Assembly: GCF_007752135.1 (NCBI RefSeq)
Contig: NZ_CP036298.1
Location: 2,356,001-2,420,000, forward strand
DNA from: Aureliella helgolandensis
GTDB lineage: Bacteria; Planctomycetota; Planctomycetia; Pirellulales; Pirellulaceae
Direction of reading: 5' to 3'
Length of the DNA stretch: 64,000 nt
A program made the translations under genes and the position numbers. The notes beneath the pieces are model-generated. The model saw only the letters and a list, made by a program, of their open reading frames with translations. It was not told where the DNA came from and ran no database searches. Shown here one piece after another: positions 27,621-47,035 of this stretch (the stretch's first letter is position 1; the number at the start of each line of letters is the position of its first letter).

Positions 27621-27694
<74 letters not shown>

Positions 27695-27761
27695 CTCAGT
27701 TTTTCGGGAGTGATTACCTGGAAGCTGAGTACGAATGCTCACGAGCAATCGTACGCATTAC

Positions 27762-28367: not shown

Positions 28368-28595
28368 ATGCCTGATGCCCCCTCACGTATCCATAGACGA
28401 AGACAAAATAAGAACGTCGCGCTTCGAATGACACAGGACCAGTGGTCCACTCTCGTCAACCAGCTGCCCGAAGATGTGAGCGTCAATCAACACATTCTCG
28501 AAACTCTTGGGCTATCAACTAAAGTCGATCGCTACTACGCAACTGACGCCCAGAAAAAAGCCCGTCAAACCGCTATCAAGCGGAGGGCGAAATAA
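28368..28595 (+). CDS. Small basic prophage protein of unknown function
   Basis: A 75-residue protein starting at MPDAPSRIHRRRQNK, supported by GGAAAGG about eight bases upstream. It is Arg/Lys-rich at both ends (RIHRRRQNKNVALRMT; ARQTAIKRRAK). NVALRMTQDQWSTLVNQLP resembles the short strand-helix opening of ribbon-helix-helix DNA-binding proteins, but the match is weak. Its stop overlaps the next start (TAATG), so the two are translationally coupled. It is the first gene after the tRNA, where excision or control proteins are often found. Confidence 0.65.
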   Translation: MPDAPSRIHRRRQNKNVALRMTQDQWSTLVNQLPEDVSVNQHILETLGLSTKVDRYYATDAQKKARQTAIKRRAK

Positions 28596-28945
28596 TGGGA
28601 AAGATTATCCGCTTCGTTGAAACAGCACTCTCTGATCCGGGCATGGGCCGCGTGATGCAGCTGCAGAGAGTTTGGGACCGCGTGCCCGCTTCTCAGCAAT
28701 CGAACTTAGTCCGCCAGACTACAGGGTTCGCCTCGCGATCGCTGCGAGGCATAGACCGCCTAGTGCCCGTCCCATTCTGCCAATTCGAAAGCAGCCTCAC
28801 TCGCTGGGTGAAAATCGTACCAGTCTTCGCAATGTGTTCTGACGCCGATCAAGCAGAGATCGTGGATTACGCCTATTGCGTGGCAGGCGTTGAACAGCCC
28901 GAAACGATTTTCAGCGACTACGTCTACAACGTGGGAGGCGAATAG
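28595..28945 (+). CDS. Prophage protein of unknown function
   Basis: A 116-residue soluble protein (MGKIIRFVETALSDPG...). Its start overlaps the stop of the preceding gene by one base. No recognised motif is visible. The C-terminal half is acidic and aromatic (YAYCVAGVEQPETIFSDYVYNVGGE), with several Asp/Glu/Tyr residues reminiscent of DNA-mimic-like surfaces, though that is speculation. It ends 291 bases before the recombinase gene. Confidence 0.6.
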   Translation: MGKIIRFVETALSDPGMGRVMQLQRVWDRVPASQQSNLVRQTTGFASRSLRGIDRLVPVPFCQFESSLTRWVKIVPVFAMCSDADQAEIVDYAYCVAGVEQPETIFSDYVYNVGGE

Positions 28946-29236: not shown

Positions 29237-30424
29237 ATGACTTCACCTGCGCAGATTATCGATCGCCCATTCTTACGTTTGTTCGATCCGGAAACAGAGA
29301 CGCTTCCCGATGCCGATTGGACACTGCAACGAGTGTTCGATCAATTCCGCTGGCCCGAAATGCAGAAACTCAAAAGCGCCAGCGACGGACCGCGGTTCAT
29401 GCGATTATGGGGCGAATTCGAGCAAGAACTAGCCCATGCGCAACGGTCCACCGGACCGTTGCGCATCAAAGACATCGGATCGCGGGAATTGAAAGCATTT
29501 CAATTGTGGCTTCAGGAGCTCGCACGTTACCCGTTACCCAAGGGAGCTTCCACGATCAACAAGGCGATGAAGGAAGTGGTTCGCGTCCTGGGAATTGCAG
29601 CCGACGAGGGGTTGGAGGTGCAACGCATTCGGCCACCCAAGGCGCTGCCGGTGCAGGCTCGCCCACGTTACTACTTCGACGATTCAGCAGTCAATCGTCT
29701 TTGGGCTGGTGCAGCCCAATGCGATTGGCCGCCGGCGCGGTTGAATCGGCCACGAGCAGGGAGTACGTTCGCTGGTTCGGGCGTCGCGCCGGTCGATTTT
29801 TGGCGGGCGTTGTTGGTGCTGCTTCGCACCTATGGGATGCGGGTGCAGGATCTCGCCGCGTATGGCACGGGAAAGAAGCCGCTGCTTTGGTCGGACGTGA
29901 CTCTCGAAACACAGTCACCCAACCCCGAATCTCTGGAGACCTGGCCACTGGGCTGGATCTACTACAAAGCGAGCAAGACCGCCGATTCTTCGGGACGCGA
30001 ATATTTCCTACCAATCACACCCTGCGCACGTGGTGCCATCGATCGCATGCGAGCCGGTGCATTTGCGATGCATGGTGGACGCGTTCCACGCGATGCTCAA
30101 GTGTTCCAATGCCCACGGTCGCACGGGTTGACCGAGCAGTTCAAGGCGTTGCAAAGGAGGACGGGAACAGTAACGCGATCGGGCGCTCCCTACGAGCTCG
30201 AAGACTTCCGCAAGACCGTGGCGACCTACTCCGGATTGATCGATACAGATCTACCCCATGCACTCTGCGGGTGGGGTGGTGGCGGGATCAAGAACAAGCA
30301 CTACCAGCAGCCCGAGCCGCTGTTGGTCCGCAAACTGTCGCTCTGCCCGCTGCCCGAATGTTTCGGCGAGTGGGTCGATCCAAACCACGTTGCGTCAGTA
30401 GACGCGTTTCTGCGGTCAATCTAA
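29237..30424 (+). CDS. Tyrosine recombinase (phage integrase)
   Basis: 395 residues. The C-terminal catalytic domain shows most of the family's active-site residues: Arg202 in TYGMRVQDLAAY, Lys247 in YKASKT, Arg325 in LEDFRKT, His341/Trp346 in LPHALCGWG, and the nucleophile Tyr356 in NKHYQQ. The usual HxxR is LxxR-like here (box II His replaced), which occurs in divergent members. Residues 50-140 resemble the core-binding helical domain. It would integrate the prophage, most simply into the tRNA-Arg 3' end 1.5 kb to the left. The distance is larger than usual, because two small genes and a control region lie between. Confidence 0.9.
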   Translation: MTSPAQIIDRPFLRLFDPETETLPDADWTLQRVFDQFRWPEMQKLKSASDGPRFMRLWGEFEQELAHAQRSTGPLRIKDIGSRELKAFQLWLQELARYPLPKGASTINKAMKEVVRVLGIAADEGLEVQRIRPPKALPVQARPRYYFDDSAVNRLWAGAAQCDWPPARLNRPRAGSTFAGSGVAPVDFWRALLVLLRTYGMRVQDLAAYGTGKKPLLWSDVTLETQSPNPESLETWPLGWIYYKASKTADSSGREYFLPITPCARGAIDRMRAGAFAMHGGRVPRDAQVFQCPRSHGLTEQFKALQRRTGTVTRSGAPYELEDFRKTVATYSGLIDTDLPHALCGWGGGGIKNKHYQQPEPLLVRKLSLCPLPECFGEWVDPNHVASVDAFLRSI

Positions 30425-30650: not shown

Positions 30651-30878
30651 ATGTTAGTGCTCAAACGAAAACCGGGCGAATCGGTCGAAATCGAAGGGGG
30701 CGTGCGGTTGATCATCAATCGCATCTCCGGTGGCAATGTTTCGATCGGAATCGAAGCGCCAGCAGAGGTCAAGATCCTGCGTAGCGAGCTGGCTAAGCAT
30801 CCGGAGCTCGTGGCCACACCGAGTGCCCCAGTGCGTGACCATGTCACGCAGTTTGAACCGATGCGACGAGCGGCCTAG
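30651..30878 (+). CDS. csrA: CsrA-family RNA-binding regulator
   Basis: A 75-residue protein whose start is fixed by the invariant MLVLKRKPGESVEI. The body follows the CsrA pattern of five strands: VRLIINRISGGNVSIGIEAPAEVKILRSEL, with conserved Gly, the IGIEAP core and R-x-E. CsrA dimers bind GGA-containing loops in mRNA leaders and repress or stabilise translation. The C-terminal tail (ELVATPSAPVRDHVTQ) is longer than in Escherichia coli. It opens the early block of the prophage, ahead of an exonuclease and a sigma factor, so it may retune host or phage mRNA use after infection. The targets are unknown. Confidence 0.93.
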   Translation: MLVLKRKPGESVEIEGGVRLIINRISGGNVSIGIEAPAEVKILRSELAKHPELVATPSAPVRDHVTQFEPMRRAA

Positions 30879-30882
30879 TGCC

Positions 30883-31086
30883 ATGGCGTTGATCGAGGTC
30901 GAAGTAGCTTGTTACTCGCTCTTAGCCGGTGAAGATCCGGTCGAGTGCGAACGCTGCAGAAAACCGGCGAAGCATCTGTTTTGCTTGGACCGTCCGCATC
31001 CACAAATACGTTGGATGCGGGCGGCGTTCTGCGATGAGCACCGAAAAGAGTTCGAGGAATCGAGTAGCGAGGTTCGCTTTAGTTGA
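30883..31086 (+). CDS. Small zinc-cysteine protein
   Basis: 67 residues starting four bases after csrA. CERCRKPAKHLFC supplies a CxxC and a third Cys, and AFCDEH adds Cys and His, so one zinc site of C4 or C3H type is likely. The rest is acidic. Proteins like this in phages often bind DNA, RNA or a host polymerase. The gene overlaps the region before the exonuclease start, so it is part of the same transcript. Confidence 0.65.
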   Translation: MALIEVEVACYSLLAGEDPVECERCRKPAKHLFCLDRPHPQIRWMRAAFCDEHRKEFEESSSEVRFS

Positions 31087-31121
31087 TCGAGGCGATCACA
31101 CAACGCAGGGAAGGGGCTGGG

Positions 31122-31901
31122 ATGGAGATCTATGTGGATGGTTCGAACCTGATTCACAAGCTGTGGCACGTGTGCGAGAACGTCACCCAAGTAGCCAACG
31201 GAATGCAACGGCAGTTGAGCGCTATCGAACGGGAATACAAGCCCGACTTCCTGCGCGTGGCACTCGACGCACCGGGCGGGACCTGGCGGCATGAGCTAGT
31301 GCCCACCTACAAAGCCCAGCGAGGCAAGAAACCCGAGGGACTGCAGACCCTGCTGAACTCAGCCGAGCAACTGCTGGGCGATTGGTGCACCGCCAGCGTG
31401 GCTGGTCATGAAGCGGACGACATTATTGCAACCTGGTGCCATCGGGCAAACCTCAGCGGCACCCAAGCGGTAATTGTGTCCGCCGACAAGGATCTCTACC
31501 AGCTGCTGCGGAAGGACTTGCACGTGATCCTGCGGAGTTTCCGCACCAGCGTGGGCAAGGTGACGCAAGAGGATTGGTTCAACCATGACGCGTTCGCAAC
31601 ACGCTGGGCCATGGTGCCCGTCCAGTGGCCGCAGTACCGAGCCTTGGTCGGAGACAAATCGGACAACATGCCTGGAGTCAACTCGATCGGCGAACGGTAC
31701 GCCATGACTTTGATGGGCCGCTATTTGACGATCGAGGATTGCGTGACTGCGATCCGTCGCTTCGAAACGACTGGAATGCCGCAGAAGCAAGAGCGTGCCC
31801 TGCTGGCTGCGTGGGACTCCGGAGAGGTCCAACGCAATATTCGGATCCACACGCTCGTGAAAAACGTTCCACTTCCCACCCCGGAAATCGCTACTACCTA
31901 G
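31122..31901 (+). CDS. 5'-3' exonuclease / flap endonuclease
   Basis: About 259 residues; the ATG at 31122 is chosen because AAGGGG lies just upstream (a TTG at 31083 is possible). FEN/T5-exonuclease signatures are clear: IYVDGSNLIHK at the start, YKAQRGKKPEGLQ, GHEADDIIATW, VSADKDLYQLL and LVGDKSDNMPGVNSIG, the last being the helix-hairpin-helix region. The metal-binding acidic residues are all present. It would remove RNA primers or resect ends during phage replication. No DNA polymerase gene is visible in the prophage, so it likely works with the host enzyme. Confidence 0.93.
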   Translation: MEIYVDGSNLIHKLWHVCENVTQVANGMQRQLSAIEREYKPDFLRVALDAPGGTWRHELVPTYKAQRGKKPEGLQTLLNSAEQLLGDWCTASVAGHEADDIIATWCHRANLSGTQAVIVSADKDLYQLLRKDLHVILRSFRTSVGKVTQEDWFNHDAFATRWAMVPVQWPQYRALVGDKSDNMPGVNSIGERYAMTLMGRYLTIEDCVTAIRRFETTGMPQKQERALLAAWDSGEVQRNIRIHTLVKNVPLPTPEIATT

Positions 31902-31911
31902 AAGGATTGCC

Positions 31912-32214
31912 ATGGTACGCAAATATGTTCGCACCGCCCCATCCCCGGCGGAACAAGCCCAAGCACTTCGCATGGCCGATACGCCCAAGCGGTACCGATC
32001 GCGAGCGGCAAGCCTGCAGCGGCACTGCCCGTTCCCGAGCGACTACAACCGCACGGATGAACGCAGCTACGAACGCTACAGGCACCTCGCCCTGGATGCG
32101 TTGATGAAGTGGCATGGGGACAGTTTCGCCCACTGCAATGCTGTGGTGGATGAATGCATCGCGGCCCACGAACGGCTGATTGGAATGGGCAACCAATGCA
32201 CAGCGAGCAGCTAG
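31912..32214 (+). CDS. Small basic protein of unknown function
   Basis: A 100-residue soluble protein (MVRKYVRTAPSPAEQAQAL...), basic in its first half and with scattered His and Cys. It sits between the exonuclease gene (10 bases upstream) and an overlapping gene, so it belongs to the early operon. No family is recognised. Confidence 0.65.
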   Translation: MVRKYVRTAPSPAEQAQALRMADTPKRYRSRAASLQRHCPFPSDYNRTDERSYERYRHLALDALMKWHGDSFAHCNAVVDECIAAHERLIGMGNQCTASS

Positions 32215-32552
32215 CCACGGCCACGCCCAGCGATGCAGAACAGTGCAGACGGCTGTGGGCTCGCATTGAATCAGAAGGGCACTTTCGCGTGATCGGCATT
32301 CAGCAACACACCGAATACTATCGTTGGGTTGTGCAGATCGCGGTGCCCTGGTGCAGATTTGCCCGCGCCGTGGCAAGCCCAGAACAATACGTGGAGTTCG
32401 TTCAAAAGCTCCAGGATCACCTGGCAACATCTGTCGCCGCCACCAAGATCGTTGTTAATCCAGTGGATACGGTAGCCGTTGCTGCTGCAGCCCCACTCGA
32501 CGCCTCCCCCAGCTGTGACCTGGAAACCCGGCAGCTATCCCTATTTGACTGA
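32196..32552 (+). CDS. Small protein ending in a sliding-clamp-binding-like motif
   Basis: About 118 residues from MHSEQLATATPS, overlapping the previous gene by 19 bases. Residues about 20-80 form a plausible small alpha/beta domain (FRVIGIQQHTEYYRWVVQIAVPWCRFARAV). An Ala/Val-rich linker follows, and the protein ends in QLSLFD. That is close to the consensus QLxLF by which DNA polymerases and other factors bind the bacterial beta clamp. A C-terminal, linker-tethered position is what a clamp ligand would need. A clamp role is inference. Confidence 0.7.
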   Translation: MHSEQLATATPSDAEQCRRLWARIESEGHFRVIGIQQHTEYYRWVVQIAVPWCRFARAVASPEQYVEFVQKLQDHLATSVAATKIVVNPVDTVAVAAAAPLDASPSCDLETRQLSLFD

Positions 32553-32559
32553 ACGCCCG

Positions 32560-33285
32560 ATGGAACAGGAAGAGATGGACCTTTGGCAGCGGTACGCTGT
32601 CGCGCGCCGTGGCCGCTCGCCCAAGAAACTTCGAGAGTCGCTCGAGCTGCGGAATCAATTGGTTGAGCGGTACCAACATCTGGCCGAAGCTGCAGCTCGA
32701 CGTGCCGCCCGCCGGATTCCGTTCGGCGTTGAATACGAAGAGCTATTGTCGCACGCCTACCTGGGCTTGATTGATGCAGTCACGAGGTTCGATCCCGACC
32801 GAGGAATCGGGCCCAATACTTACATGCCTACGCGGATCCATTTCTCGATCACCGATTCGCTGCGCAAGTTGGACACGGTGAGCCGTACGGTCCGTGCGAA
32901 GCTTAAGAAACGCAGGGCATTGTCAGAACAGTTGGGGCATGAGCCCACGGACGACGAGGTGCAAGAACATCTAGGGTTCGTTATCCCGGCTGTACAGATC
33001 AAGTCTCTGGAGGCCGAATCGGATTCCAGCTCGAAGGGCAGGGGCAGGGGGGACACCCTGCGCGACCATGTTGCCGATCGCCATACACCGCAGCAAGTAA
33101 GCGACTGCAGCGAGCTGCTCCGTGGACTCGACAAACGCGAGCGGTTGGTCGTGATGCTGTATTTCATGCATGGCTACCGCATGAAGGAAGTCGCCGAAAC
33201 CATTGGATTGAGCGAATCGCGCGTCAGTCAAATGATGACGGCACTGCGACCGAGATTGAAGGAAAACGCTGCGCGAGCGGCATAG
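32560..33285 (+). CDS. FliA/WhiG-like sigma-70 family factor
   Basis: About 241 residues from MEQEEMDLWQRY (ATG 33-base-in alternatives exist at 32575). Region 2 is clear: RIPFGVEYEELLSHAYLGLIDAVTRFDPDRG, with the DP-R-G core, then NTYMPTRIHFSITDSLRKLDTVSRTVR. Region 3 is RALSEQLGHEPTDDEVQEHLG. Region 4 has LDKRERLVVMLYFMHGYRMKEVAETIGLSESRVSQMMTALRPRL, a helix-turn-helix that reads -35. This is the FliA/SigB/WhiG shape. It lies in the early block and would logically switch on late genes, alone or alongside csrA. No dedicated anti-sigma gene is seen. Confidence 0.92.
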   Translation: MEQEEMDLWQRYAVARRGRSPKKLRESLELRNQLVERYQHLAEAAARRAARRIPFGVEYEELLSHAYLGLIDAVTRFDPDRGIGPNTYMPTRIHFSITDSLRKLDTVSRTVRAKLKKRRALSEQLGHEPTDDEVQEHLGFVIPAVQIKSLEAESDSSSKGRGRGDTLRDHVADRHTPQQVSDCSELLRGLDKRERLVVMLYFMHGYRMKEVAETIGLSESRVSQMMTALRPRLKENAARAA

Positions 33286-33311: not shown

Positions 33312-34325
33312 ATGACACGAAACGAGAGAGGTAGGCAGGAACGCCCGCTAATCGATCTGGCCGAAGGTCGCGATCAAGACCTCCGGAGTGATCTATACCT
33401 AGCATTTAAACGCTGTGCGGGCTGGCGAAAGCCCAATAGCACCAATCTGCATGTGCGGGAGCTGCTGTTCTGGATCATGGCCCTGGACAGGGCAGGGCAA
33501 GGAGTGCAGAAGAGCTACGACGAGATCGCGGATCGCCTGGAGCTGGCCAGCGGGCGCTCGGCACGTCGTGTGATTGACCGAGCAGCTAAAGAGTTTCGAT
33601 TGCTAGTGGTTACCGAATCACGGTATGAGCGAGGAGGACAGAACCCCAATCGATATTCGATCAACTGGCTGCGAGTGCGAGCACTTCGCGATGGTGTTGA
33701 GGATGGAAATCCATGGGCCGAGCAACGGACCGCTCAACAGCATCGCGAAGTTCCCGCCCCCCAGGAACCGGGTGACCGCAGAGGGCACCCGGGTGACCGT
33801 AGCGGACATGCGGGTGACCCCAGCGGTCACCCCTATAAGGAACATTCCAGAACCATTACCAGAAGTATTAATACACACCCACACTCTCCCCTAGCGCCAA
33901 CTTCAACGGACGACTCCACGAGCGTTCGTCGGCCTCCACTCACGGAGGGGGAGGTGGTGAGTGTTTTTTTGAACCTTGGAGTTTTGAGGGCAGCGACACT
34001 CGTTGCCCAAGCTCTGGGGCGGGGCTGCGACACTCGCAGCCTGAAGGCCATTGCCCGTTGGTACGAACGCTCACAGCGTCGGCACCCAACGCGATGGCGA
34101 AAGCCGTCTAGCGTGCTCATGATTCGGCTCACAGCCGCATGGCCCACGGTACCGGCTTGGAAGTGCTGGACACCTGGCGAACCGCCTCGTCGACACTCGG
34201 CGATCGATCGCGACGACTTCCAGCAACGAAAAGTGCGTGCCAGGCAGGACGCGTTGTCCGGCCCGTCAATGTCCGAATTGCTTGCCATTGGCAGACAAAA
34301 ACAACAGGAGAATCCCGACGAATGA
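33312..34325 (+). CDS. Lambda-O-like replication initiator with winged-helix domain
   Basis: 337 residues. Residues about 45-115 resemble a replication-protein winged helix (VRELLFWIMALDRAGQGVQKSYDEIADRLELASGRSARRVIDRAAKE...). A hydrophilic linker (about 130-200) contains three in-frame seven-residue repeats of GD-x-x-GH type, encoded by the iterons described separately. The C-terminal part (about 205-290) has helical segments with Trp, where initiators recruit a helicase loader or helicase. A gene for a wHTH initiator with repeated sites in its middle matches the lambda O arrangement. Direct evidence for initiator function is only this layout. Confidence 0.65.
   Translation: MTRNERGRQERPLIDLAEGRDQDLRSDLYLAFKRCAGWRKPNSTNLHVRELLFWIMALDRAGQGVQKSYDEIADRLELASGRSARRVIDRAAKEFRLLVVTESRYERGGQNPNRYSINWLRVRALRDGVEDGNPWAEQRTAQQHREVPAPQEPGDRRGHPGDRSGHAGDPSGHPYKEHSRTITRSINTHPHSPLAPTSTDDSTSVRRPPLTEGEVVSVFLNLGVLRAATLVAQALGRGCDTRSLKAIARWYERSQRRHPTRWRKPSSVLMIRLTAAWPTVPAWKCWTPGEPPRRHSAIDRDDFQQRKVRARQDALSGPSMSELLAIGRQKQQENPDE
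33769..33885 (+). other. Candidate replication origin: three 21-bp iterons plus A+T-rich tract inside the initiator gene
   Basis: Units start at 33769, 33790 and 33811, each opening CGGGTGACC. Unit 3 is a perfect dyad GGTGACC-CCAGC-GGTCACC; unit 1 is GGTGACC-GCAGA-GGGCACC; unit 2 is decayed on the right half. The period of exactly 21 bases (two helical turns) places sites on one DNA face. Directly downstream, 33834-33880 is about two-thirds A+T, with TATAA and ATTAAT. The layout copies the lambda origin, where iterons in the O gene precede a melting region. Confidence 0.65.
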
Positions 34326-34735
34326 CAGCGGTGCAAGAAACGGCCAATTCCGATGCTGGCAAATGTTTTTGGCGACTGCAGACGGCGGTGATGGTGCGGG
34401 GATCAGCGGAATGGCTGACAACAGCCGAGCTGCTCAAACTGGCGGAATCATGCGAGGCGACGGCCCATGAGCAACGCACGCACGATTGGAATCGGCACTT
34501 TGCAATTCCCATGATTCGCGAGCTGGGGATCCAGCTCGCCAAAGCACGCCGTGATGAAATGCACGGAGCCCACTCGCGCATCGCCACAGTCACGCGAGCG
34601 CTACGCAAGCTGCAACGTAAAGCGCGTGCTAAAAGGGCACCCAGCTTCCGCACGCAAATCGCAGCCCTCGAAAGAGAGCTCGACGAGCTGCTCGACAACT
34701 GCGGACAAGCTACGATGTTTGACGAATTGGACTAG
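34322..34735 (+). CDS. Small helical protein following the initiator
   Basis: 137 residues; the ATG overlaps the initiator stop (ATGA), so translation is coupled. The body is helical and Arg/Lys-rich (KLQRKARAKRAPSFRTQIAALERELDELLDN), with a likely coiled coil near the C terminus. It ends in QATMFDELD, which loosely resembles a clamp-binding QxxMF motif. It could be a helicase loader or a replication accessory factor by position, but I see no ATPase motif, and the family is not recognised. Confidence 0.65.
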   Translation: MTAVQETANSDAGKCFWRLQTAVMVRGSAEWLTTAELLKLAESCEATAHEQRTHDWNRHFAIPMIRELGIQLAKARRDEMHGAHSRIATVTRALRKLQRKARAKRAPSFRTQIAALERELDELLDNCGQATMFDELD

Positions 34736-34861: not shown

Positions 34862-36397
34862 TTACGCAATATCTCGCGGTTCTTTGAGATTCAAAGCACG
34901 AATCAGACCATCGTGCACTTTGTAAGTATCGGATTCAATAAAACCCTGCGATGGGTAAAAACATCGGTATCGCCAAGCTGTTGAATCGCCGATTTTAAAT
35001 CCAATTACAGAGTTGGCGAAGAGAAATCGTAAATCGTCAAGCATTCCAGCAGGCGTAAATTCGATCTCGAGCTTCGCAAGTTGGGCCTCCAAATCTGCGC
35101 GCGAAAACTGCGTGGAAGCATGATTCTGAATTGCGGAAAGCAACTGAATGATCGACGGCCGTTGCACCGACCACTCATCGAGGAGTTCTTGCTTCAACCA
35201 CTCTGAATAGCCGGATTCCGCTTGGTATATCGCCTCGACTGCAATTTGGGAGAAAACGTTTGACGTATCTGCAAATGGGTCATTTACGCTGTCATGCATA
35301 GCATCTATCGTGCGACTTAGGAAGCAGATCATGTCTCGCGGTCTCATCATTGACCGCTTGAGAAGATAGTTAGGGGGTTTTGACCTTTGCCGCATTTCAT
35401 TCTTATCAAATAAAGCTTCGAGATCATCAACAGGTGGCTGGCCATTCAACTCAGCAAAGTACGATAAGCGGCGGATAAGGAGTTTGAATAAGTCGTCTCG
35501 CCCCCACTTGAGTAGTGCGCCACAATCTTCCCGAAGTTTGTTTGAGTCGTTAAGTGGCAGGACGGAAAAAATGTCTTCGCGAAGGAATACGATAGGTCGC
35601 ATGATTTCACTATATTTTGCCGTTAGTGAGTCAGCTGCTGAAACCAATCCTGACAGGACTCGCCTTGAAACTTCCAGTGAGACGTCATCCCACGCCTCAT
35701 CAACACGGTCAAAACAAATGATAGTTCGGTATCTACAAGGAGTAGTTTGTGCGATCGCTTTCTCCATGTAGGAGATAATGTTTCCAATGTTTTGCGCTAA
35801 GCAAGTTCGAATGTCATTGTCGGATTCAACTTCGTCAAATGAAATCTCACCGCCGGAAACTTCCAAAGAATCAAAATTGCCTTCCTCAAGGTCAAGACCT
35901 GCCTTGGGCAACTTGACCTTCGAGAGCCCAAGTAATTTTCGTCCAATCAGTTGGTAAATCGACGGTAACGGATGGTCGAACAGCTTTTCCAAGAGCTTCT
36001 GCGCACTTGCGATTGGCGTTGGAACTGCAACGCCATCCTTTTTGCAGCGAGAGACGTGCGCCTTTATCACTTCAACCAAGATCACGAAACGCCATGATTG
36101 CTTGTAAGCCAGGGAATCAGCAGTTTCCGTATTTCGCAATAGCGAATGTACCTTCCAGTTATAGTCCTCAAACGACAACGACACGAGAATGTCGGTATCT
36201 CGGAGGTACTCGTGTGGATTCTCCTGCAGATACCGAAAGACTGCAGTCTTACCAGCCCCTTTTCGGCCGAGAACCAAGAACGAGGAATTGCTAGCCAAAA
36301 CGGCACGGAGTACTCCGTTGTCATAAAAGTAGTTGACAAGATCGTCGTCTCGCTCTGCCGAAACCTTGCCGACGTTGATCCAGTCAAGAATATTCAT
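34862..36397 (-). CDS. P-loop ATPase (Sll1717-like), probable prophage cargo
   Basis: 511 residues from ATG 36397 (earlier in-frame codons look untranslated). Walker A is GRKGAGKT at 44-51, and IICFDRVDEAW at about 226-236 is a Walker B with a D-x-x-D/E ending. The layout N-terminal P-loop plus long helical C-terminal region resembles the P-loop ATPase family named after Sll1717, and the KAP/STAND type of large signal ATPases. It is on the minus strand amid rightward early genes, flanked by 126 and 134 base gaps. Its A+T content is visibly higher than that of neighbours, suggesting separate acquisition. Cargo genes at such spots often block other phages. Defence is inference. Confidence 0.7.
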   Translation of the reverse strand: MNILDWINVGKVSAERDDDLVNYFYDNGVLRAVLASNSSFLVLGRKGAGKTAVFRYLQENPHEYLRDTDILVSLSFEDYNWKVHSLLRNTETADSLAYKQSWRFVILVEVIKAHVSRCKKDGVAVPTPIASAQKLLEKLFDHPLPSIYQLIGRKLLGLSKVKLPKAGLDLEEGNFDSLEVSGGEISFDEVESDNDIRTCLAQNIGNIISYMEKAIAQTTPCRYRTIICFDRVDEAWDDVSLEVSRRVLSGLVSAADSLTAKYSEIMRPIVFLREDIFSVLPLNDSNKLREDCGALLKWGRDDLFKLLIRRLSYFAELNGQPPVDDLEALFDKNEMRQRSKPPNYLLKRSMMRPRDMICFLSRTIDAMHDSVNDPFADTSNVFSQIAVEAIYQAESGYSEWLKQELLDEWSVQRPSIIQLLSAIQNHASTQFSRADLEAQLAKLEIEFTPAGMLDDLRFLFANSVIGFKIGDSTAWRYRCFYPSQGFIESDTYKVHDGLIRALNLKEPRDIA

Positions 36398-36531
36398 GTA
36401 AGCTCGTTCCGTTTCAATTAACGACCGACAGCACCGGTAGGCGGGAATTAAGTTTGATTTAAGAGAACGCTGGCCACTACCACTCCGGTGCATAGTAGGG
36501 CCGAGTGTTTCATGTGGCTGACAACCGCAGC

Positions 36532-36780
36532 CTACGCCTTGGACCACTGGGAAATCATGTCGTGCAACGGCCCATCGGGCCGAAGATAGACATCCACATA
36601 TTCTACGTTTTCGCTGTTCGCAAAGGCAACGGCGACCACACGAAACATGACCGCCTTACCGGGATCGTGTGGATCATCCAATTCTATATGGTCTCCTACA
36701 CGCGGGATGATTGGTAGTTGAGACTCAACATTGTGGTTGTTTCCATCGCCGTAAAGCGGAATGAGCATGCATTTCTTCAT
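36532..36780 (-). CDS. Small protein of the tail-fibre operon
   Basis: 82 residues (MKKCMLIPLYGDGNNHNVESQLPII...), predicted to be mostly beta. Its start overlaps the stop of the gene before it (ATGA), so it is coupled to the minus-strand tail-fibre operon. RVGDHIELDDPHDPGKAVMFRVVAVAF looks like a small beta-barrel fold. No family recognised. Confidence 0.6.
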   Translation of the reverse strand: MKKCMLIPLYGDGNNHNVESQLPIIPRVGDHIELDDPHDPGKAVMFRVVAVAFANSENVEYVDVYLRPDGPLHDMISQWSKA

Positions 36781-37112
36781 AGTCGGCCCGCGCCCTTGTT
36801 TTGCTTAGAATCGGCTGTGTGCAGTTTCGTGGTGGTGGACAACTTCTTGTTCCGCTTGAGTGATCGCGTCATCGCTGGAATATAATTGGTCGTATTTGAC
36901 ACCGCCATGCCCGCACTATCAACAAAACCACGAACCAAATTAGTCAGTGGTTTCATCGCAGACAGCTTCGGGGATATCAGACCAATTTGGCTATTATCAC
37001 GCGGCACCGCCTGCATGTCCAACGCAATCAGGCCAATGGTGGCATGAAATGCAAAAGTTGACAGCGAGTTAGATGCCCAATCCCTGCTATTCCGCCATCC
37101 GTCTGCCAGCAC
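36777..37112 (-). CDS. Small protein of the tail-fibre operon, possible membrane-associated
   Basis: 111 residues with a GTG start overlapping the end of the previous gene by 26 bases. A moderately hydrophobic stretch (STFAFHATIGLIALDMQAV) precedes a basic C terminus (MTRSLKRNKKLSTTTKLH). No motif is recognised. It is included because of its coupled position at both ends (ATGA downstream), not because of its composition. A fortuitous frame is possible. Confidence 0.4.
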   Translation of the reverse strand: MLADGWRNSRDWASNSLSTFAFHATIGLIALDMQAVPRDNSQIGLISPKLSAMKPLTNLVRGFVDSAGMAVSNTTNYIPAMTRSLKRNKKLSTTTKLHTADSKQNKGAGRL

Positions 37113-37536
37113 TGCGGACGAGGAACAGGGTAACCGTGTGCCTCAGATGCGTGCAGCCGTCAGTGGTGAGCTCGGTAAGGTCGAGTTGATATTCCCCCGG
37201 TCGCAGGTGTGCGATCGCACTGGCGTCGATGTGGAGCGTTGCAAGAGAATCGCTAGTTCGGACCAACGTGGCAGCCGCTGGATCCGGAGAGACCACCCCG
37301 ACCACGCGCGACAGCCCTGCCACCGAATCGAGCTCCACGCAGGGCGTGGGACTGTTGACGCAGCGCCGCAGAGTGCACACCAGCGTCGACGTTTCCACAG
37401 TGGCCGCCGGGATCTCCAGATCGACATCCTTGGCGAGGACCTGTTCGAGTGGTTCGCCCGTCGATCGATTGTTGATCAAGATGGTCGTTTCACCCGCATC
37501 GTCATAGTATTCCCCGTACGATACTTCGTCCGCCAT
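37087..37536 (-). CDS. BppU/upper-baseplate-like small structural protein
   Basis: 149 residues, beta-rich, with the pattern of the N-terminal domain of phage baseplate proteins (TTILINNRSTGEPLEQVLAKDVDLEIPAATV... then HLRPGEYQLDLTELTTDGCTHLRHTVTLFLVR). It starts two bases after the stop of the large tail-fibre gene, so it is in one transcript. It probably links the receptor-binding protein to the tail. The resemblance is by secondary-structure pattern only. Confidence 0.5.
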   Translation of the reverse strand: MADEVSYGEYYDDAGETTILINNRSTGEPLEQVLAKDVDLEIPAATVETSTLVCTLRRCVNSPTPCVELDSVAGLSRVVGVVSPDPAAATLVRTSDSLATLHIDASAIAHLRPGEYQLDLTELTTDGCTHLRHTVTLFLVRSAGRRMAE

Positions 37537-37537
37537 G

Positions 37538-39997
37538 TTAGCTCCCTGGTGGTTCTATGATTTCGTCCACGTATTGATCGCGTTGGTTTCGTCGTCGCAC
37601 GGCAGCACCCGCCGCAACGGGTTCCTCCGCTCGAGGAACCTTCGTGATCTCTTCTGCTGCTGTCAAGGATTGACTGGCCGCTGCAGCCGCATTAGCTCCA
37701 GTAGTACTCCCATCGATGGCTGCCACGATGTCTGCAATCAAAGAGGCATTATCCAGCATCTCGGTGCCGATAGTCGCAAAGGTACTGGGAGAGGTAAATG
37801 CCCTGCTTAGCGTGTCAGTGTAGGCCTTGGGCAACGTTCGCTCGAAGATTCCAACCATGCTCAACGTGCCCTTTAGCGGATAGGTTGCCCCACTCGCCTT
37901 TTCCTGCCCGATGGCATGGTAGGGAGCCGCCGCGCTTGACATACTCGCACTAACGCTCTCCGCCGTTTTCTGCGTTTCACCGACGCGAATCTTCAACCGC
38001 TGTGCCGCATCGAAGCGATCATATTCGCCATACAGCAACACCGGCTCATTCTGCGGCACTGCAACATCCGAGGTGATCGACACCGCCCCCGAGCTGAGCA
38101 CCGCGAAGAATTGAAAAAGCCCAGTGGCCGTGGTGATTCTCGTAATGATCCCGCCTTGGCCCAACGTATTATTGGAGAGAATCGACTGTTGTAGTGGGTT
38201 GCTCGAATGCGGTTGCCAATTGACGATCGCCACCATGGCCACCCGAAACGAATTCTCGACTGCGGGGCTTATCAGCATTTTGCTGCTTACGTCGGCGCCG
38301 ACCGGCCCGAATTTAATTCCGCCGAACGTTTGGCTGTTGTCCTCCTGAGTGTTGAGAACGGTTAATGCCTTGCTGCCACCCGGTGCAAAATTCGTACGGT
38401 TGAATCGATTGTCGGCCAGCTGCAGCGATCCCACAAACAGATTGAGCGCTCCCATGCCTGCGGCCACCTCGTGGGGAGCCTGCAGTCGGTCCTCGTTTTC
38501 GTCGGTGTAGTAAACGCGCAGCACGCGATCGGTCACACCGTCCAGCTCTAATCGGACCAACAGCCCGCTGGCTGGTTGTGCCGGGTGTTGCAGCATCGCG
38601 AGCGTAAAGTCCTCGTAACCTTCGTACCGGCCGCAGCCCATCCAGAACAGATAGGGCGCGACTCCCGCAACGCGGCCGTGTGCGAAGTTGGGCCGAAAAT
38701 TGTTAGTCAGGCTGCCTGAGGTGATCTCCTGCAGCTTTGCCCAGCTCGCGCCAGTACGCTGCCAAATTTCGATCTCACGAATGCCTGCCACTTCGCGTGC
38801 GACTGCAATCTTGGATGCATCCAGGGGATCGAAAACAGCAACCCCGGGATAGGAAACAGAGGGCGAATAGTACGAGACAATCGGTCCCCCCTCGTCCATC
38901 ACTTTGACGCTAGACCATGTGCCAGCATCGGCATCGTAGCTCGCGTGGTACAGATCGTGGTTGCGTTCATCGTGTCCAGGGTAAACGTAGTACAGCGCAT
39001 GGACGACTCCGTCTGCGTCTTGCGTGATGTCGCCCACCCATCGCGAATCGATGCCCTCATCCGTGGCGATAATGCTAGACGCTCCGTAGTGGGTGTGAAC
39101 GATCGGCAAGGACAATGCCGTACCGTCCATCTGCTTCCATGCACCCCCTGTGTACTGCAGCGCGTAGATTGGCCGGTTGCCCGTCAAGTCGAGTGCCACA
39201 CCTGCGGAGTCGTTGGCAATAAACGAGTTGACGTTGTTTTCCTTCTTGGTGCAGATAATCAGAAACTTGTCGATCCCGTTCGTCCAGAACCGCGGATAGC
39301 ATTGGAACGTCCCATGGTCGATAAAGTTCACCTGGGATGACCATGTTTCACCATCGTCGTCCGAAGTCACGTAGTACCATTTGTCGGCTCCGTCATGCCT
39401 ACCGAAAAGGTAGATTTTATCTTCGCCGCTCAGCCTCCAAAGTTGCGAGTACGACAGGACTCCCTGCGTGGTAGGTTCAATCGAGTACTCGGCGTCCCAT
39501 TCACTGCCATCGTTGGGATTGGTCGACACGCGAAACTTGACGGTGTTTCCGTTATTGTGCTCGCAGTACGCGACCAAGTAGCGTCCATCGGATCGAATGC
39601 AAATGGACGGATTGTTGTGATCGTCCCCCTCCAGATCTGTCGTCGAGATGAGAATGTCTTGCTGGGTGTCGGTGTCATGATCATAGACCGATACATGCCT
39701 GGCTCCCTGCTGGTTTACCCAACCGGTGAGCGTCTTGCGGCCGACGGGATCGTAGATCGACACCGGCTGTGTGAACCACGTCCACCCACCGTTGGATCCG
39801 CACACGTGCTTGTTCGGAATCAAGCACGCGGGCACGGGCGTCACGCCGTCTTGCTCAGTCACATAGACATTGCGACCAGTAGGAAAAACTCCCGCCTGGA
39901 TTTGGGCGTCCCGACTCAGGTCAATTGGGAAAACCCCGGAGCACTTGCCTGCCTGCTTGGAAGCAGGAATGGTGATCGTTTTGTATCGCTTGGTCAT
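37538..39997 (-). CDS. Tail-spike-like protein with BNR/sialidase-type propeller and C-terminal LamG-like domain
   Basis: 819 residues. Residues about 90-480 have repeated Asp-box-like motifs (SDDDGETWSS near 223) and the pattern of BNR-repeat proteins (SYSQLWRLSGEDKIYLFGRHDG, HDLYHASYDADAGTWSS). Residues about 520-720 look like a LamG/concanavalin-like carbohydrate-binding beta sandwich (FRVAMVAIVNWQPHSS...KIRVGETQKTAESV). The C terminus is Ala-rich and helical. It probably binds or trims a cell-surface glycan of the host. It lies three bases downstream of a glycine-rich tail protein on the minus strand. The enzymatic activity is not shown, since catalytic residues were not identified. Confidence 0.75.
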   Translation of the reverse strand: MTKRYKTITIPASKQAGKCSGVFPIDLSRDAQIQAGVFPTGRNVYVTEQDGVTPVPACLIPNKHVCGSNGGWTWFTQPVSIYDPVGRKTLTGWVNQQGARHVSVYDHDTDTQQDILISTTDLEGDDHNNPSICIRSDGRYLVAYCEHNNGNTVKFRVSTNPNDGSEWDAEYSIEPTTQGVLSYSQLWRLSGEDKIYLFGRHDGADKWYYVTSDDDGETWSSQVNFIDHGTFQCYPRFWTNGIDKFLIICTKKENNVNSFIANDSAGVALDLTGNRPIYALQYTGGAWKQMDGTALSLPIVHTHYGASSIIATDEGIDSRWVGDITQDADGVVHALYYVYPGHDERNHDLYHASYDADAGTWSSVKVMDEGGPIVSYYSPSVSYPGVAVFDPLDASKIAVAREVAGIREIEIWQRTGASWAKLQEITSGSLTNNFRPNFAHGRVAGVAPYLFWMGCGRYEGYEDFTLAMLQHPAQPASGLLVRLELDGVTDRVLRVYYTDENEDRLQAPHEVAAGMGALNLFVGSLQLADNRFNRTNFAPGGSKALTVLNTQEDNSQTFGGIKFGPVGADVSSKMLISPAVENSFRVAMVAIVNWQPHSSNPLQQSILSNNTLGQGGIITRITTATGLFQFFAVLSSGAVSITSDVAVPQNEPVLLYGEYDRFDAAQRLKIRVGETQKTAESVSASMSSAAAPYHAIGQEKASGATYPLKGTLSMVGIFERTLPKAYTDTLSRAFTSPSTFATIGTEMLDNASLIADIVAAIDGSTTGANAAAAASQSLTAAEEITKVPRAEEPVAAGAAVRRRNQRDQYVDEIIEPPGS

Positions 39998-40000
39998 TGC

Positions 40001-41023
40001 CTATTCCGGATATCTAATGATTACAATTCCACTGCCACCACCTGCACCGCTAGCGAACGATCCAGCACCACCGCCACCGCCGCCGGTGTTTTCAACTCCA
40101 ACGGACCTGGTTATCGTCCCTCCACCTTGGCCGCCACCACCGAGGCCCCCAGCCCCGCCGGGACTTCCACTCTGAGCAGCTCCACCGCCACCACCGGCAT
40201 AGTAGGTTGGCGTTCCGCTGATCGACGACTGAAGACCAACACCGCCCGCAGCCCCATCGACCGCAGCAGCCCCTGCAGATCCAGCACCGCCACCACCGCC
40301 CGCTACGTTGGGCGTAGTGATCTGACCGGATCCACCGTCGTTTCCCTGCCCGACAGTTCCTTCACCCGGTGTACCAATAGGGGAAGCACCCCAAGTGCCT
40401 CCGCCGCCACTTCCCCCGAGGTTGCCAGCTCCGTTGTTGCCACCCACGGACGTACCGTACTGGCCCCCACCGCCGCCACCGATGGCCGTGACAATACCAG
40501 CGATTGCCGAATTGGCCCCATTCCCTGGAGGCACTCCTGTGTTACCAGCGTTACCACCCGCACCGACCGTGACTGCAATGCTGCCAGCGGCCACAGTTGT
40601 CGAGCCCGCCAACAGCCCTCCAGCACCGCCACCACCGGCGGCTACACCCGATTGCCGTCCGCCTCCACCACCGCCACCGGCGACGACTAGATACTCGATC
40701 TCGCCACCGCCGGTGACGACGAAAGAACCGCTCGATGTGAACGTGTGAATTTTGTAACCGCCGGAGGTTGTGACCGTTCCCCCGGTCGCGGACACCTTGG
40801 GGGAGCTGACATTGCCGAGCAAGGAGGGTTTGAGTTCATTCCCGAGCAGCAGCCCTGGACGTAGGGAGCCACTCGGTTGAATCAGCGATGGCTTAACTTC
40901 GCTCGCACTGCCAGGTGTGCCGCCGGTGTAGTCGGGCGTAACGAGTGACGGTTTGAGGTTGCCCGAACCGTCGGTTAGACCGGGTTTGAGACGATTCGGA
41001 TCAAGGTCGCTGTAGTCGGGCAT
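40001..41023 (-). CDS. Glycine-rich tail fibre/tip protein
   Basis: About 340 residues from MPDYSDLDP (a GTG at 41113 is possible). The N-terminal 100 residues contain repeated (L)KPSL/RPGL units, such as LKPGLTDG, LKPSLVTP, VKPSLIQP, LRPGLLLG and LKPSLLG. The C-terminal two-thirds is a Gly/Ala/Ser-rich domain with GGGGGG runs, introduced by YKIHTFTSSGSFVVTGGG and closing with SGIVIIRYPE. This architecture is typical of phage and bacterial surface glycine-rich proteins, which form polyglycine-II sheets at the tip. It starts the minus-strand tail-fibre operon. Confidence 0.75.
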   Translation of the reverse strand: MPDYSDLDPNRLKPGLTDGSGNLKPSLVTPDYTGGTPGSASEVKPSLIQPSGSLRPGLLLGNELKPSLLGNVSSPKVSATGGTVTTSGGYKIHTFTSSGSFVVTGGGEIEYLVVAGGGGGGGRQSGVAAGGGGAGGLLAGSTTVAAGSIAVTVGAGGNAGNTGVPPGNGANSAIAGIVTAIGGGGGGQYGTSVGGNNGAGNLGGSGGGGTWGASPIGTPGEGTVGQGNDGGSGQITTPNVAGGGGGAGSAGAAAVDGAAGGVGLQSSISGTPTYYAGGGGGAAQSGSPGGAGGLGGGGQGGGTITRSVGVENTGGGGGGAGSFASGAGGGSGIVIIRYPE

Positions 41024-41280
41024 CTGGACAAACTTCGGGTGTTTGTGGGTATCTTGCGTATTTACTAACGAGTGCTGTATACCAGAGTAGGGCGAGGATG
41101 CGACAGATTGCACGGATGCGATTCAACTCGCTACTGCAATTGTGAAGGATTCACATTGCACCCCGAGCCCTTTTCGAAACGCCAAGGCGACGGACAAGAC
41201 TGTTCGGCAAGTTCTCCTTAGTTGCAGACGCAAGGATGCGTCCGCCTTGGCTCCTTCAATTGCCACGCATGGATGCCGCA

Positions 41281-41757
41281 ATGGTCAAACGTTCTGCCGA
41301 CACCGCTGCCAATTTATCAACGATTCTTTGGGCCGCATTGGGTTTTCTGGCTAAGAAACGCACCGACAAATCGCTACTGCCCGTTGAGACTCCGACGAAG
41401 ATCGACGTCACCATCGAGGGCAAGATCGGACGCAAGCAGATTTGCGAGCGGGTTATCGGATATCTGAATCTCGGAACCGATGGCCAACGGTCGGCCACCA
41501 GCGCGGCCGATCCGGTGCGTGTGACCGCCCTGCTGCTCGCTCAAGTCCCGACGGAGAAACGAGCGGAGGTCATTGCCGGAATCATTGCGGTGAAAGAAAG
41601 CACATCACAATTACCTTCGGTGCATGAGACCTATATCGAACAAGCCGATCAATTCCTGAAACGTCTAAGATCGAGCACGATGGCCACGGTCAAAGGTTCA
41701 GTCACGTTCGCCTTGAACAAGCCCAAGCCCAAGCCAGCTGCTAAAGCGAGTAAGTGA
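41281..41757 (+). CDS. Prophage protein of unknown function
   Basis: 158 residues from MVKRSADTAANLS (other ATGs at 41269 and 41236). A short hydrophobic stretch (LSTILWAALGFLA) near the N terminus might be a membrane segment. The rest is soluble, with a basic Lys/Pro C terminus (NKPKPKPAAKASK). Its stop precedes the next start directly (TGAATG). It opens a set of exported or membrane proteins lying between the tail-fibre operon and the terminase. No family recognised. Confidence 0.6.
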   Translation: MVKRSADTAANLSTILWAALGFLAKKRTDKSLLPVETPTKIDVTIEGKIGRKQICERVIGYLNLGTDGQRSATSAADPVRVTALLLAQVPTEKRAEVIAGIIAVKESTSQLPSVHETYIEQADQFLKRLRSSTMATVKGSVTFALNKPKPKPAAKASK

Positions 41758-42366
41758 ATGCGATTCCCAGCGCGAGCGTTGTTGGCCTTGATCCTGGTTG
41801 TCTCGATTGGATGCGATGTCGATCGAGTTCCCGAGATGGTGGCCTACCCAGCGCCTCCACCGGAAATCCCGGTCGCCAATCTTCCAGCCAGTCTGCGGCA
41901 AACGAACTGGGAGCATTCCGGCAACGGCCAAGGATCCTGCGTACACGCGAGCTCGTGCAGTCACTTCCGCTGGCAGGGCAAGCAGTCGCTCGCAGCGGCC
42001 TGGCGTCGAGAGTACGCCGGTGGCGAAACGGCCTATTCGATTCTCACTAAATGGCGAGCCGAACAAATCCCGTTTGTGTTCACCGAGAACGGCGAACCGA
42101 GCGTCCTGGAGTGGGCGAGTGACACGCGCCGTGGTGCCATCATCTGGTACTACCCGCAGCACTGCGTCACCTTCTGCGGATTCTCCGAAATGAACGGTGT
42201 CGAATACGCGTTCATTCTCGACAACAACCGCACTGGTCAATTTCTGGCGATTGAAAAACATGCTTTCCTCCGAGCTTGGCGAAGCTACGGTGGTTTCGCC
42301 GCCATCGCCGTGTTCACACCTACCGGACCATTGCCATGGCCCGCCTACATTCCCAAAGGAACCTGA
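41758..42366 (+). CDS. Exported papain-like cysteine peptidase-like protein, candidate lysis or entry enzyme
   Basis: 202 residues with an N-terminal hydrophobic signal ending SIGCD; Cys19 could be lipidated, although the lipobox is weak. NGQGSCVHASSC puts Gln58 and Cys61 in the order of a papain oxyanion Gln and nucleophile. WYYPQHCVTFCGF supplies His135, and FILDNN supplies Asn156/157. The Q-C-H-N order and spacing match peptidase family C1. Substrates would be a peptide crosslink or envelope protein. Position with three exported or membrane proteins suggests host envelope handling (lysis, exclusion or entry). Activity is unproven. Confidence 0.6.
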   Translation: MRFPARALLALILVVSIGCDVDRVPEMVAYPAPPPEIPVANLPASLRQTNWEHSGNGQGSCVHASSCSHFRWQGKQSLAAAWRREYAGGETAYSILTKWRAEQIPFVFTENGEPSVLEWASDTRRGAIIWYYPQHCVTFCGFSEMNGVEYAFILDNNRTGQFLAIEKHAFLRAWRSYGGFAAIAVFTPTGPLPWPAYIPKGT

Positions 42367-42370
42367 GTCC

Positions 42371-43222
42371 ATGAACGGTTATCCGAAACAGCACAACGTG
42401 ATCCATCTCAGCATCGGAGCTGCCACGGCGGTCGCACTGTGTGCGATCATCGTCGGTGGCTCCATCATCGCATCGGCCTACCAACCGGCGACGAGCGAAG
42501 ACTCGCGACCTGGCGTACTGCCTCGCTTGGGAGTGACCGGCCTGGCTGGATCCAACGATTCGATGGAAGCGGCCTATGGTCCAGTGAACAAAGGGGCTCT
42601 CAACGAAGCCAAGCAGGGTTTGTTCGATCGCGTGCGAGCTCGCAGAACCTCCCGGATGAACAGTTGCTGCGTTCCGCAGTCGCAGGCAATCCAGTACGTG
42701 GCGACTCGCTACGTGATTACGGGGCCCGGTTACTCGAGTAACCCGGTACCGCTCCCCTCGGGACTAACTCAGCCCGTTTACCGGCAGCCGCTCAACGCGC
42801 CCAATTGTCCAACCTGCCCACTGGAAATTGCTCCCAGTCGATCGCCGTCGGACATTCGAGGCGAGTCGATCGAGGACACCTATGGTCCACTCAACAAAGC
42901 GGCCCTAGGCGAGCGGAAGCAAAGCACGGTCACCAGCCTGCTAAGCGATCCGGGAGACGTGGGCGAGCTGCCCAGCAGTCTGGGACCACGGGTGGATCAA
43001 ACGACGACACTCGATCGACAACCGCTGTATCAGCCCACCGAGGCGGAACAGCCCTACCTGTCGACAGAATTGCCGAATCCAACCAACGCCGACGGCACGA
43101 TGCGACTTGTCGCCGAAGCGGGGATCTTGCCACCACTAGAACGATTGCCGATTGTTGCCTCTGGCATCCCAGACAGTCCGCCGGTACCGGCGACAGCACT
43201 GCGGATCGTGCCCAGTAAATAA
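42371..43222 (+). CDS. Single-pass membrane protein with two YGP repeats
   Basis: 283 residues from MNGYPKQHNV. One membrane segment (TAVALCAIIVGGSIIASAY) is followed by a Pro-rich exported region. Two related units, SMEAAYGPVNKGALNEAKQG at about 60 and SIEDTYGPLNKAALGERKQS at about 163, suggest an internal duplication. Four Cys lie between the units (NSCCVPQ, NCPTCPLE), possibly disulfide-forming. It starts four bases after the previous stop and is co-transcribed with the papain-like gene. Function unknown. Confidence 0.65.
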   Translation: MNGYPKQHNVIHLSIGAATAVALCAIIVGGSIIASAYQPATSEDSRPGVLPRLGVTGLAGSNDSMEAAYGPVNKGALNEAKQGLFDRVRARRTSRMNSCCVPQSQAIQYVATRYVITGPGYSSNPVPLPSGLTQPVYRQPLNAPNCPTCPLEIAPSRSPSDIRGESIEDTYGPLNKAALGERKQSTVTSLLSDPGDVGELPSSLGPRVDQTTTLDRQPLYQPTEAEQPYLSTELPNPTNADGTMRLVAEAGILPPLERLPIVASGIPDSPPVPATALRIVPSK

Positions 43223-43277
43223 CGGTCCCTGCGGCGATCGTGGATCGTGCAACTTCCCCCATCACAGGATTCGCCGT

Positions 43278-43988
43278 ATGCGTCCCCCATTCAATTGCAA
43301 AACCGTATTCGTCCGAATCGTGGCATTGTTGCTGATGTCGCTGCAGTGTGGCCTTGTCGTGGCTCAGAACGTGCCTGCCGACCCAGCGGATGCTGCGCGT
43401 CCGTATTTGTCCATCTTCACGCATCCCGACTACGCGGCCCGCCCCCAAGAGGCGGCCCTAGTGCGAGCAGTGCAGGGTGGCGAGCTGCTGCGGTTCGCCC
43501 AGTCGAGCCACTTCAAACATTACACCTCGTCCGATCCGATCTACCGCGACCGGTTCGCCACGATGTTCCCGACCAGCACTTTCCCAATCGTGTGCGTCCA
43601 GCGAAGCGACGGGGCGTATTGGTACAAGGCGAGCGGGAACCGGGTGCCGACCGATGGCCGTCAGTTGCTCGACGAGATCAAGTACTACGTGGCTCTCGAT
43701 CCGCAGCTCAATCCGCCGAGCGGTACCGCCGAGTCTGGTCTCAAAACGCAGATCGGATACGAGTACGAGCAATGCGGTCCAGACGGTTGTCCTCCTCGGC
43801 CCGATACCTGGCTGCCCAACGTCAATCCGCAGCTGCCCGATTCGTCCGATTTCCTGCAAATTAAAACGCCCGTGCGCGATTCCATGGCGAGTGGTGTATC
43901 GACGCTGTTCGCAGTACTCGCCTGCGGATTTCTGTTGTTCGTCTTGGTAGTCAGTGCCATTGTCCTCTTTCTTGTTAGGCCCAAATAA
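43278..43988 (+). CDS. Exported protein with C-terminal membrane anchor
   Basis: 236 residues from MRPPFNCKTVF. There is an N-terminal signal (VRIVALLLMSLQCGLVVAQ) and a C-terminal membrane segment (LFAVLACGFLLFVLVVSAIVLFLV), so the middle is outside. The middle contains VCVQRSDGAYWYKASGNRVPTDGRQLLDEIKYYVALDPQ, which looks thioredoxin-fold-like in arrangement but lacks CxxC. A Cys-rich hook (EQCGPDGCPPRPD) follows. Part of the same exported set. Function unknown. Confidence 0.65.
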   Translation: MRPPFNCKTVFVRIVALLLMSLQCGLVVAQNVPADPADAARPYLSIFTHPDYAARPQEAALVRAVQGGELLRFAQSSHFKHYTSSDPIYRDRFATMFPTSTFPIVCVQRSDGAYWYKASGNRVPTDGRQLLDEIKYYVALDPQLNPPSGTAESGLKTQIGYEYEQCGPDGCPPRPDTWLPNVNPQLPDSSDFLQIKTPVRDSMASGVSTLFAVLACGFLLFVLVVSAIVLFLVRPK

Positions 43989-43989
43989 C

Positions 43990-44301
43990 ATGACGTCCCT
44001 AATAGTTGGTGGGTCTGCACTCGCCTTTGGTTTTCTGTTACTAGTCGGCGTGGCCGTCATCGCGATCCGCTCGTTCGTTGTGAGATCAAGGTCGGCCGGA
44101 GTCAATCCGTTCGATGGGCTCGACGCACGGGAGATCGAAGCCATGCGGCGTATCTTTCAAGAAATGCGACAAGCCGAAATCGAGGTCGGACTGCGGAACA
44201 AATTGCTGCAAGCGGCTGGCCCCACGGTCGATGTCGCTGCGACTGCTCAGCCAGCACCTCCGGCAGCCGCCACCGTGGCTCCCGTCAAACCGACCGCCTA
44301 A
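43990..44301 (+). CDS. Small membrane protein with cytoplasmic tail
   Basis: 103 residues from MTSLIVGGSALAFGFLLLVGVAVIAI, a single membrane segment starting two bases after the preceding stop. A helical hydrophilic stretch (DAREIEAMRRIFQEMRQAEIEVGLRNKLLQ) and an Ala/Pro-rich tail follow. The size and topology would fit a pinholin, spanin or anchor partner for the neighbouring exported proteins, but nothing specific supports any of these. Confidence 0.6.
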   Translation: MTSLIVGGSALAFGFLLLVGVAVIAIRSFVVRSRSAGVNPFDGLDAREIEAMRRIFQEMRQAEIEVGLRNKLLQAAGPTVDVAATAQPAPPAAATVAPVKPTA

Positions 44302-46697: not shown

Positions 46698-46997
46698 ATG
46701 GCAAAAAAAGCGGCACCCCGAAAACGCAAACCCGCTCCCCCAACGCACGAGGAGATTTCACATCATGAAGCAATAGCCCAACTGCAGAATCTACTACGAC
46801 AAATGCAACAGCGCAGCGTGGCCTACTACGCAACACCACGGCGTGGCATTACCGACGCTGCCAAGTCAAACGCACTACCGATCGACTATGAGATTCCGAT
46901 CAGTGGTGGCAAGGAGGTGTTGCAACACCTCGCCTCCGGAAAATTGAATGTGGTATCGCAGCCGCTTCTCGAATGGATTGTCGAGCGGCTGCGCTAG
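46698..46997 (+). CDS. Small basic protein after terminase
   Basis: 99 residues with a Lys/Arg/Pro N terminus (MAKKAAPRKRKPAPPTHEE), then an Ile/Leu helix and a small hydrophobic core (LNVVSQPLLEWIVERL). It begins two bases after the terminase stop. It might be a terminase partner or a DNA-binding packaging factor, but there is no recognised motif, and the call rests on position. Confidence 0.6.
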   Translation: MAKKAAPRKRKPAPPTHEEISHHEAIAQLQNLLRQMQQRSVAYYATPRRGITDAAKSNALPIDYEIPISGGKEVLQHLASGKLNVVSQPLLEWIVERLR

Positions 46998-47035
46998 CTT
47001 ACTCACTTGATGCACAACATGATGAACGGACTCCC

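Follow-up and report, generated by a model that had tools for sequence, protein, structure and literature searches.

The window, which is the whole stretch of 64,000 nucleotides analysed here, covers bases 2356001-2420000 of the 8.44 Mb single-contig genome. An integrated element of about 43.4 kb starts in it within the 3' end of a tRNA-Arg gene, at 27649, and has its right edge outside the window, as placed by the att repeats. As expected of an integrated temperate tailed phage, attL and attR are present together with packaging, head and tail genes, and the prophage that the earlier note had called from the sequence is borne out by the terminase, portal, protease, capsid and tape measure genes and by a 48-bp direct repeat at both edges (Table 1). 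IMG/VR already flags this prophage and a second, related one of the same genome as viral (L044 and L143), although its borders for the window prophage are shorter than the att repeats give. Relatives of the terminase in sequenced genomes come almost entirely from Planctomycetota records, which makes a planctomycete host very probable.

Table 1. Features of the tRNA-Arg prophage and its attachment sites, in window coordinates.
Feature	Position	Strand	Basis or remark
tRNA-Arg(ACG), integration site	27621..27695	+	ARAGORN; Rfam tRNA 68.1 bits
attL, 48-bp repeat of the tRNA-Arg 3' end	27649..27696	no strand	exact repeat
Left-arm protein without assigned function	28595..28945	+	conserved in second prophage
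Probable integrase	29237..30424	+	position beside attL; relative in prophage L132
csrA, 75 aa	30651..30878	+	Pfam CsrA
67-aa protein with Cys pairs, zinc-ribbon-like	30883..31086	+	sequence
5'-3' exonuclease / flap endonuclease, FEN type, stand-alone	31125..31901	+	5_3_exonuc_N 95.7 bits; 5_3_exonuc 52.7 bits
100-aa protein without assigned function	31912..32214	+	
118-aa protein without assigned function	32196..32552	+	
Sigma-70-family sigma factor, nearest FliA/WhiG	32560..33285	+	regions 2, 3, 4
Weak likeness to phage replication initiators	33312..34325	+	phrog_270 E 0.001; phrog_391 E 0.009
137-aa protein without assigned function	34322..34735	+	also in further tRNA-linked csrA elements of genome
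Cargo block: Sll1717-family ATPase, BNR_4 protein, Gly-rich protein	34862..41113	-	
Pre-terminase genes without assigned function	41236..44301	+	
Terminase large subunit	44359..46695	+	
DNA methyltransferase	46973..47818	+	
Portal	48413..49924	+	
Head maturation protease	50006..51040	+	
Major head protein	51106..52062	+	
Tail tape measure protein	55386..57899	+	
attR, same 48 bp	71075-71122, past window end (L048:7075-7122)		exact repeat

Searches of Pfam and PHROGs gave no match for the probable integrase, and the 67-aa protein encoded after csrA had nothing above a Pfam cut-off. The cargo block does not have the same content in the two sister prophages, and the stretch at 41236-41757 is closely conserved in the second. 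Within the block, the Sll1717-family P-loop ATPase (34862-36547) is possibly a defence gene, with a weak PADLOC match, and the BNR_4 protein (37538-39997) matches L112:15044-16999 with a very high score, the latter lying in a different csrA element of this genome that is linked to a tRNA-Leu. In the right arm an IS91-family transposase gene is present as two identical tandem copies, at 61392-62570 and 62865-64000, the latter running into L048, and at L048:2918-4600 the same element carries a reverse-transcriptase/maturase gene that by eye resembles the group II intron type.

The stretch of interest is the left arm, where the earlier note had seen a CsrA start and sigma regions 2, 3 and 4 with exonuclease and accessory genes in between, and where Pfam scores and open reading frames now confirm that arrangement. 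The CsrA protein, starting at ATG 30651, scores 62.8 bits against the Pfam CsrA model (cut-off 27) and 47.9 against the equivalog TIGR00202, below its cut-off of 70.1; it has a typical CsrA core and a differing tail. Alignments to RsmE (PDB ID: 2jpp) and E. coli CsrA find Leu4, Arg6 and Arg44 present, which we take to be RNA-binding residues after the studies of E. coli CsrA and RsmE. Trees of csrA give a topology without resolution, and for that reason a passenger origin of the gene is possible.

The leader of the phage csrA is AAGCGAAGGAATGCGGCATG, with AAGGA shortly 5' of the ATG. The bases immediately before the ATG are identical in both prophages and those further upstream diverge, a conservation that would fit autoregulation in this single case. 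Just 5' of csrA, at 30528-30595, three tRNA-like stems can be drawn (a 7-bp outer stem and two hairpins), of which both hairpin stems are kept and the loops altered in the sister prophage. ARAGORN finds no tRNA there, and Rfam finds none in the window copy. An RNA regulator at this position was considered and rejected, as the fold is no better than that of shuffles (z of 0.04 and 0.97).

The open reading frame listed for the sigma factor begins with the TTG at 32479; the ATG at 32560, which gives 241 aa, is the more probable start. Sigma70_r2, r3 and r4 all exceed their Pfam cut-offs, and regions 2 and 4 place the protein in the sigma-70 family. Its best NCBIfam subfamily is FliA_WhiG (TIGR02479) at 129.9 against a cut-off of 189.6, so the label FliA-like given in the earlier note holds as a statement of the nearest family and fails as membership in the curated one. 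WhiG- and FliA-type sigma factors are also its best solved relatives. In a tree its place is amid FliA proteins of planctomycetes, but tentatively so, the branch being very long. The host's own FliA (sigma28; G000:C1:7051009), in the same genome, is 39% identical to it with the same architecture of regions. The two have in common the motif SESRVSQM in region 4.2, whereas the phage linker between regions 3 and 4 is about 12 residues shorter, and in region 2.4 the host reads RGAMLDELR-DWVPR where the phage reads HFSITDSLR-DTVSR, with much of the signature lost; the labels 2.4, 4.2 and 3-4 linker are presumed assignments. Most likely, on this comparison, the phage protein works like and derives from a FliA-type sigma factor, lying outside the curated family by score. 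In both prophages its gene belongs to the early module, and in the window it lies 11 kb ahead of the terminase, so that calling its use late would be a guess.

The second prophage lies in a tRNA-Lys gene and has a complete 44-base att repeat. Its identity to the window prophage is about 94% across the late genes and 87% in the left arm. It retains the csrA and sigma module, the sigma factors being 95% identical and separated by 33 synonymous versus 11 nonsynonymous changes, a dN/dS of 0.093; the corresponding values are 0.031 for the exonuclease, 0.019 for the terminase and 0.36 for csrA, and these counts indicate purifying selection on the shared genes examined. Because the module has been retained with a synonymous excess, its presence is not chance, and csrA and sigma are both intact and look functional. 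The IS91 copies and the reverse-transcriptase gene in the right arm might suggest that the module is decaying cargo of a defective prophage. We think this very improbable, as dN/dS is about 0.5 or less in all seventeen genes compared between the two prophages, including csrA and sigma, with structural genes at 0.01-0.10, and the att repeats are exact.

How often the pair recurs was approached from the portal, from sigma, from csrA and from the terminase. Portal relatives turned up in 25 of the 397 genomes from the host's class, and in 7 of 20 such stretches examined csrA is located no more than 20 kb upstream of the portal, where about 0.6 would be expected by rough arithmetic from csrA density. 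One of the 7, L142, has a tRNA-Asp, an integrase-like gene, an FEN exonuclease, csrA, and a sigma factor with regions 2 and 4 that lies 4 bp ahead of terL and has FliA_WhiG as its best family at 108.7 bits. Sigma factors of the FliA type were found by scanning on 9 IMG/VR contigs, and a single one beyond the window's own, L385, has csrA followed by a FliA/WhiG sigma and the same type of terminase; the L385 sigma scores 228.4 for FliA_WhiG, above the cut-off, and retains the full FliA signature. The scan for viral csrA gave 80 loci, with a sigma nearby in 5 (four of them near-copies) and of other types. A terminase scan of IMG/VR and genomes over 160 loci found one csrA and one sigma, but with flanks of at most 10 kb against a csrA-terminase distance here of 13-14 kb it is not a fair negative; a 19-sequence terminase alignment was rejected as query for being too diverse. 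The closest portal relative outside the genome, L123 (G689) at 55%, has no such terminase or csrA in the upstream 20 kb, so the head module there may have been exchanged.

By gene order, L142, L385 and the window-type prophages share csrA, then sigma, ahead of the terminase, and the pair has thus been gained or retained by three or more lineages of such phages, in counts too small to tell whether sigma and csrA attract each other. It could be argued that the two genes are unconnected, csrA being a general accessory of planctomycete tRNA-integrated elements and sigma having been acquired separately in a few of them. Several observations are in keeping with that: csrA occurs with no detected FliA-type sigma in L109, L112, L120, L121 and six related prophages, and the tree gives the sigma factors differing origins, which is compatible with a separate phage job for each protein. 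Nevertheless, both are present in three lineages, with their order towards the terminase unchanged, and they persist jointly in both prophages of this genome, which leads us to doubt that the two are unconnected.

Our preferred reading, that the two proteins act for the phage, invites a search for their targets, beginning with the sigma28 consensus taken from PMC2859248. The form TAAA-N14-16-CGATA has no site in either prophage, and TAAAGTTT-N11-GCCGATAA promoters of the FliA/WhiG kind likewise number 0 in both, but the consensus is of the E. coli type and may not be that of the host. In the host genome TAAA-N14-16-GCCGATA has 2 sites versus 13 for the reversed control, and since the host is not itself enriched for the consensus, the negative result for the prophage promoters is weak. 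The 120-base upstream regions scored at background level against the consensus; a two-block motif upstream of six late genes gave an observed 56 versus a null of 57.6 +/- 1.5 from random phage segments, a comparison of low power; and promoters of the sigma70 type numbered 7 versus 8.4 expected. A[N]GGA is found at 12 of 34 phage starts versus 2.7 expected, and at 3 of 14 host starts among the window genes (Fisher p about 0.5). As a CsrA signal it was set aside, for ribosome-binding sites explain it equally well. The two-level takeover proposed in the earlier note thus stands as far as two regulators of different levels in one prophage are concerned, whereas its targets and the takeover itself drew no support from these tests: the shared promoter that it proposed to look for upstream of late genes did not appear, as a sigma28 site or as a common two-block motif, under the limits of power and host motif just given, and GGA at phage starts is not clearly higher than at host starts.

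The same results bear on whether both proteins act chiefly on the host in lysogeny, sigma using the host FliA promoters and CsrA joining the host pool, with a shift in motility or attachment as the outcome. Redirection of host programmes by phage sigma factors is known (PMC9429907), the window sigma is nearest to FliA/WhiG and keeps SESRVSQM in region 4, and L385 has a sigma above the family cut-off with its signature entire. However, region 2.4 of the window sigma has diverged from the host FliA signature, and the canonical sigma28 site is not enriched in the host genome, which gives no sign of shared targets; we find such a host-directed role unlikely. The phage may act specifically on the flagella or lifestyle of its host, but the anatomy can be explained without that.

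We return to action within the phage cycle, to which we give a probability of about one half. The element is an intact-looking temperate phage of the siphovirus type, and the csrA-sigma stretch would be its early regulatory and replication module, in which an early CsrA would tune translation and sigma would redirect RNA polymerase. CsrA, made early, is predicted to bind leaders that contain GGA, probably its own included, and once bound would tune translation of phage, perhaps also host, mRNAs. The left-arm sigma would displace the host sigma on RNA polymerase and drive middle or late phage transcription from promoters of other than the classical FliA type.

Each part alone is already known. 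Alleles of CsrA/RsmM occur in Pseudomonas and other phages; among 2517 phage genomes, 30 carried one (Sobrero and Valverde 2020, PMC7366521). The phage-borne CsrA here is of that family and 31-39% identical to the Pseudomonas phage matches, but its gene is paired with a sigma factor and lies beside an FEN exonuclease gene. Phage sigma factors include T4 gp55, SPO1 gp28 and gp34 and sporulation-like ones, carried by <15% of phages (PMC9429907). Like these, the present one is of the sigma-70 family; what sets it apart is its FliA/WhiG type and the position of its gene, within the early module of a phage that is temperate and planctomycete-type. A classic case of a sigma factor and a translational regulator in one phage is T4, with the late sigma gp55 and the translational repressor RegA; it too acts on transcription and translation, but RegA is unrelated to CsrA and T4 is lytic. 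With T4, and with the pair in at least two further phage lineages, the claim that such a combination is rarely seen in one phage was too strong. The literature searched, in which papers on planctomycete phages are few and coverage is incomplete, contained no recurrent pair of CsrA and FliA-type sigma in temperate planctomycete-type phages, and what would be new, modestly, is its recurrence within one temperate phage group.

Should the pair prove to be a phage switch, transcription and translation would be under joint control by a temperate phage in a way open to testing, and part of the csrA expansion in planctomycetes would have an explanation. A wider proposal, that in a group of planctomycete temperate phages CsrA, made early, and a FliA-type sigma adapted to the phage form a conserved pair and the main switch for lysis-lysogeny and late genes, and that the traffic of such elements feeds the unusual csrA multiplicity of planctomycete genomes, is speculative and we would not expect it to hold in full. 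All 98 of the 98 class members searched have 2-17 csrA copies. The present genome carries 16, and for at least 6 of these the distance from a tRNA gene at the start of the stretch is about 1.6-3.4 kb, the stretches being the two prophages, L109, L112, L120 and L121; the last four are putative elements by gene content. In several of the tRNA-linked csrA stretches there are also a FEN exonuclease of the stand-alone kind and a protein related to the 137-aa one. Stand-alone FEN-type exonucleases are at L109, L112, L120 and L122, with csrA nearby in three and the 137-aa relative in two of these.
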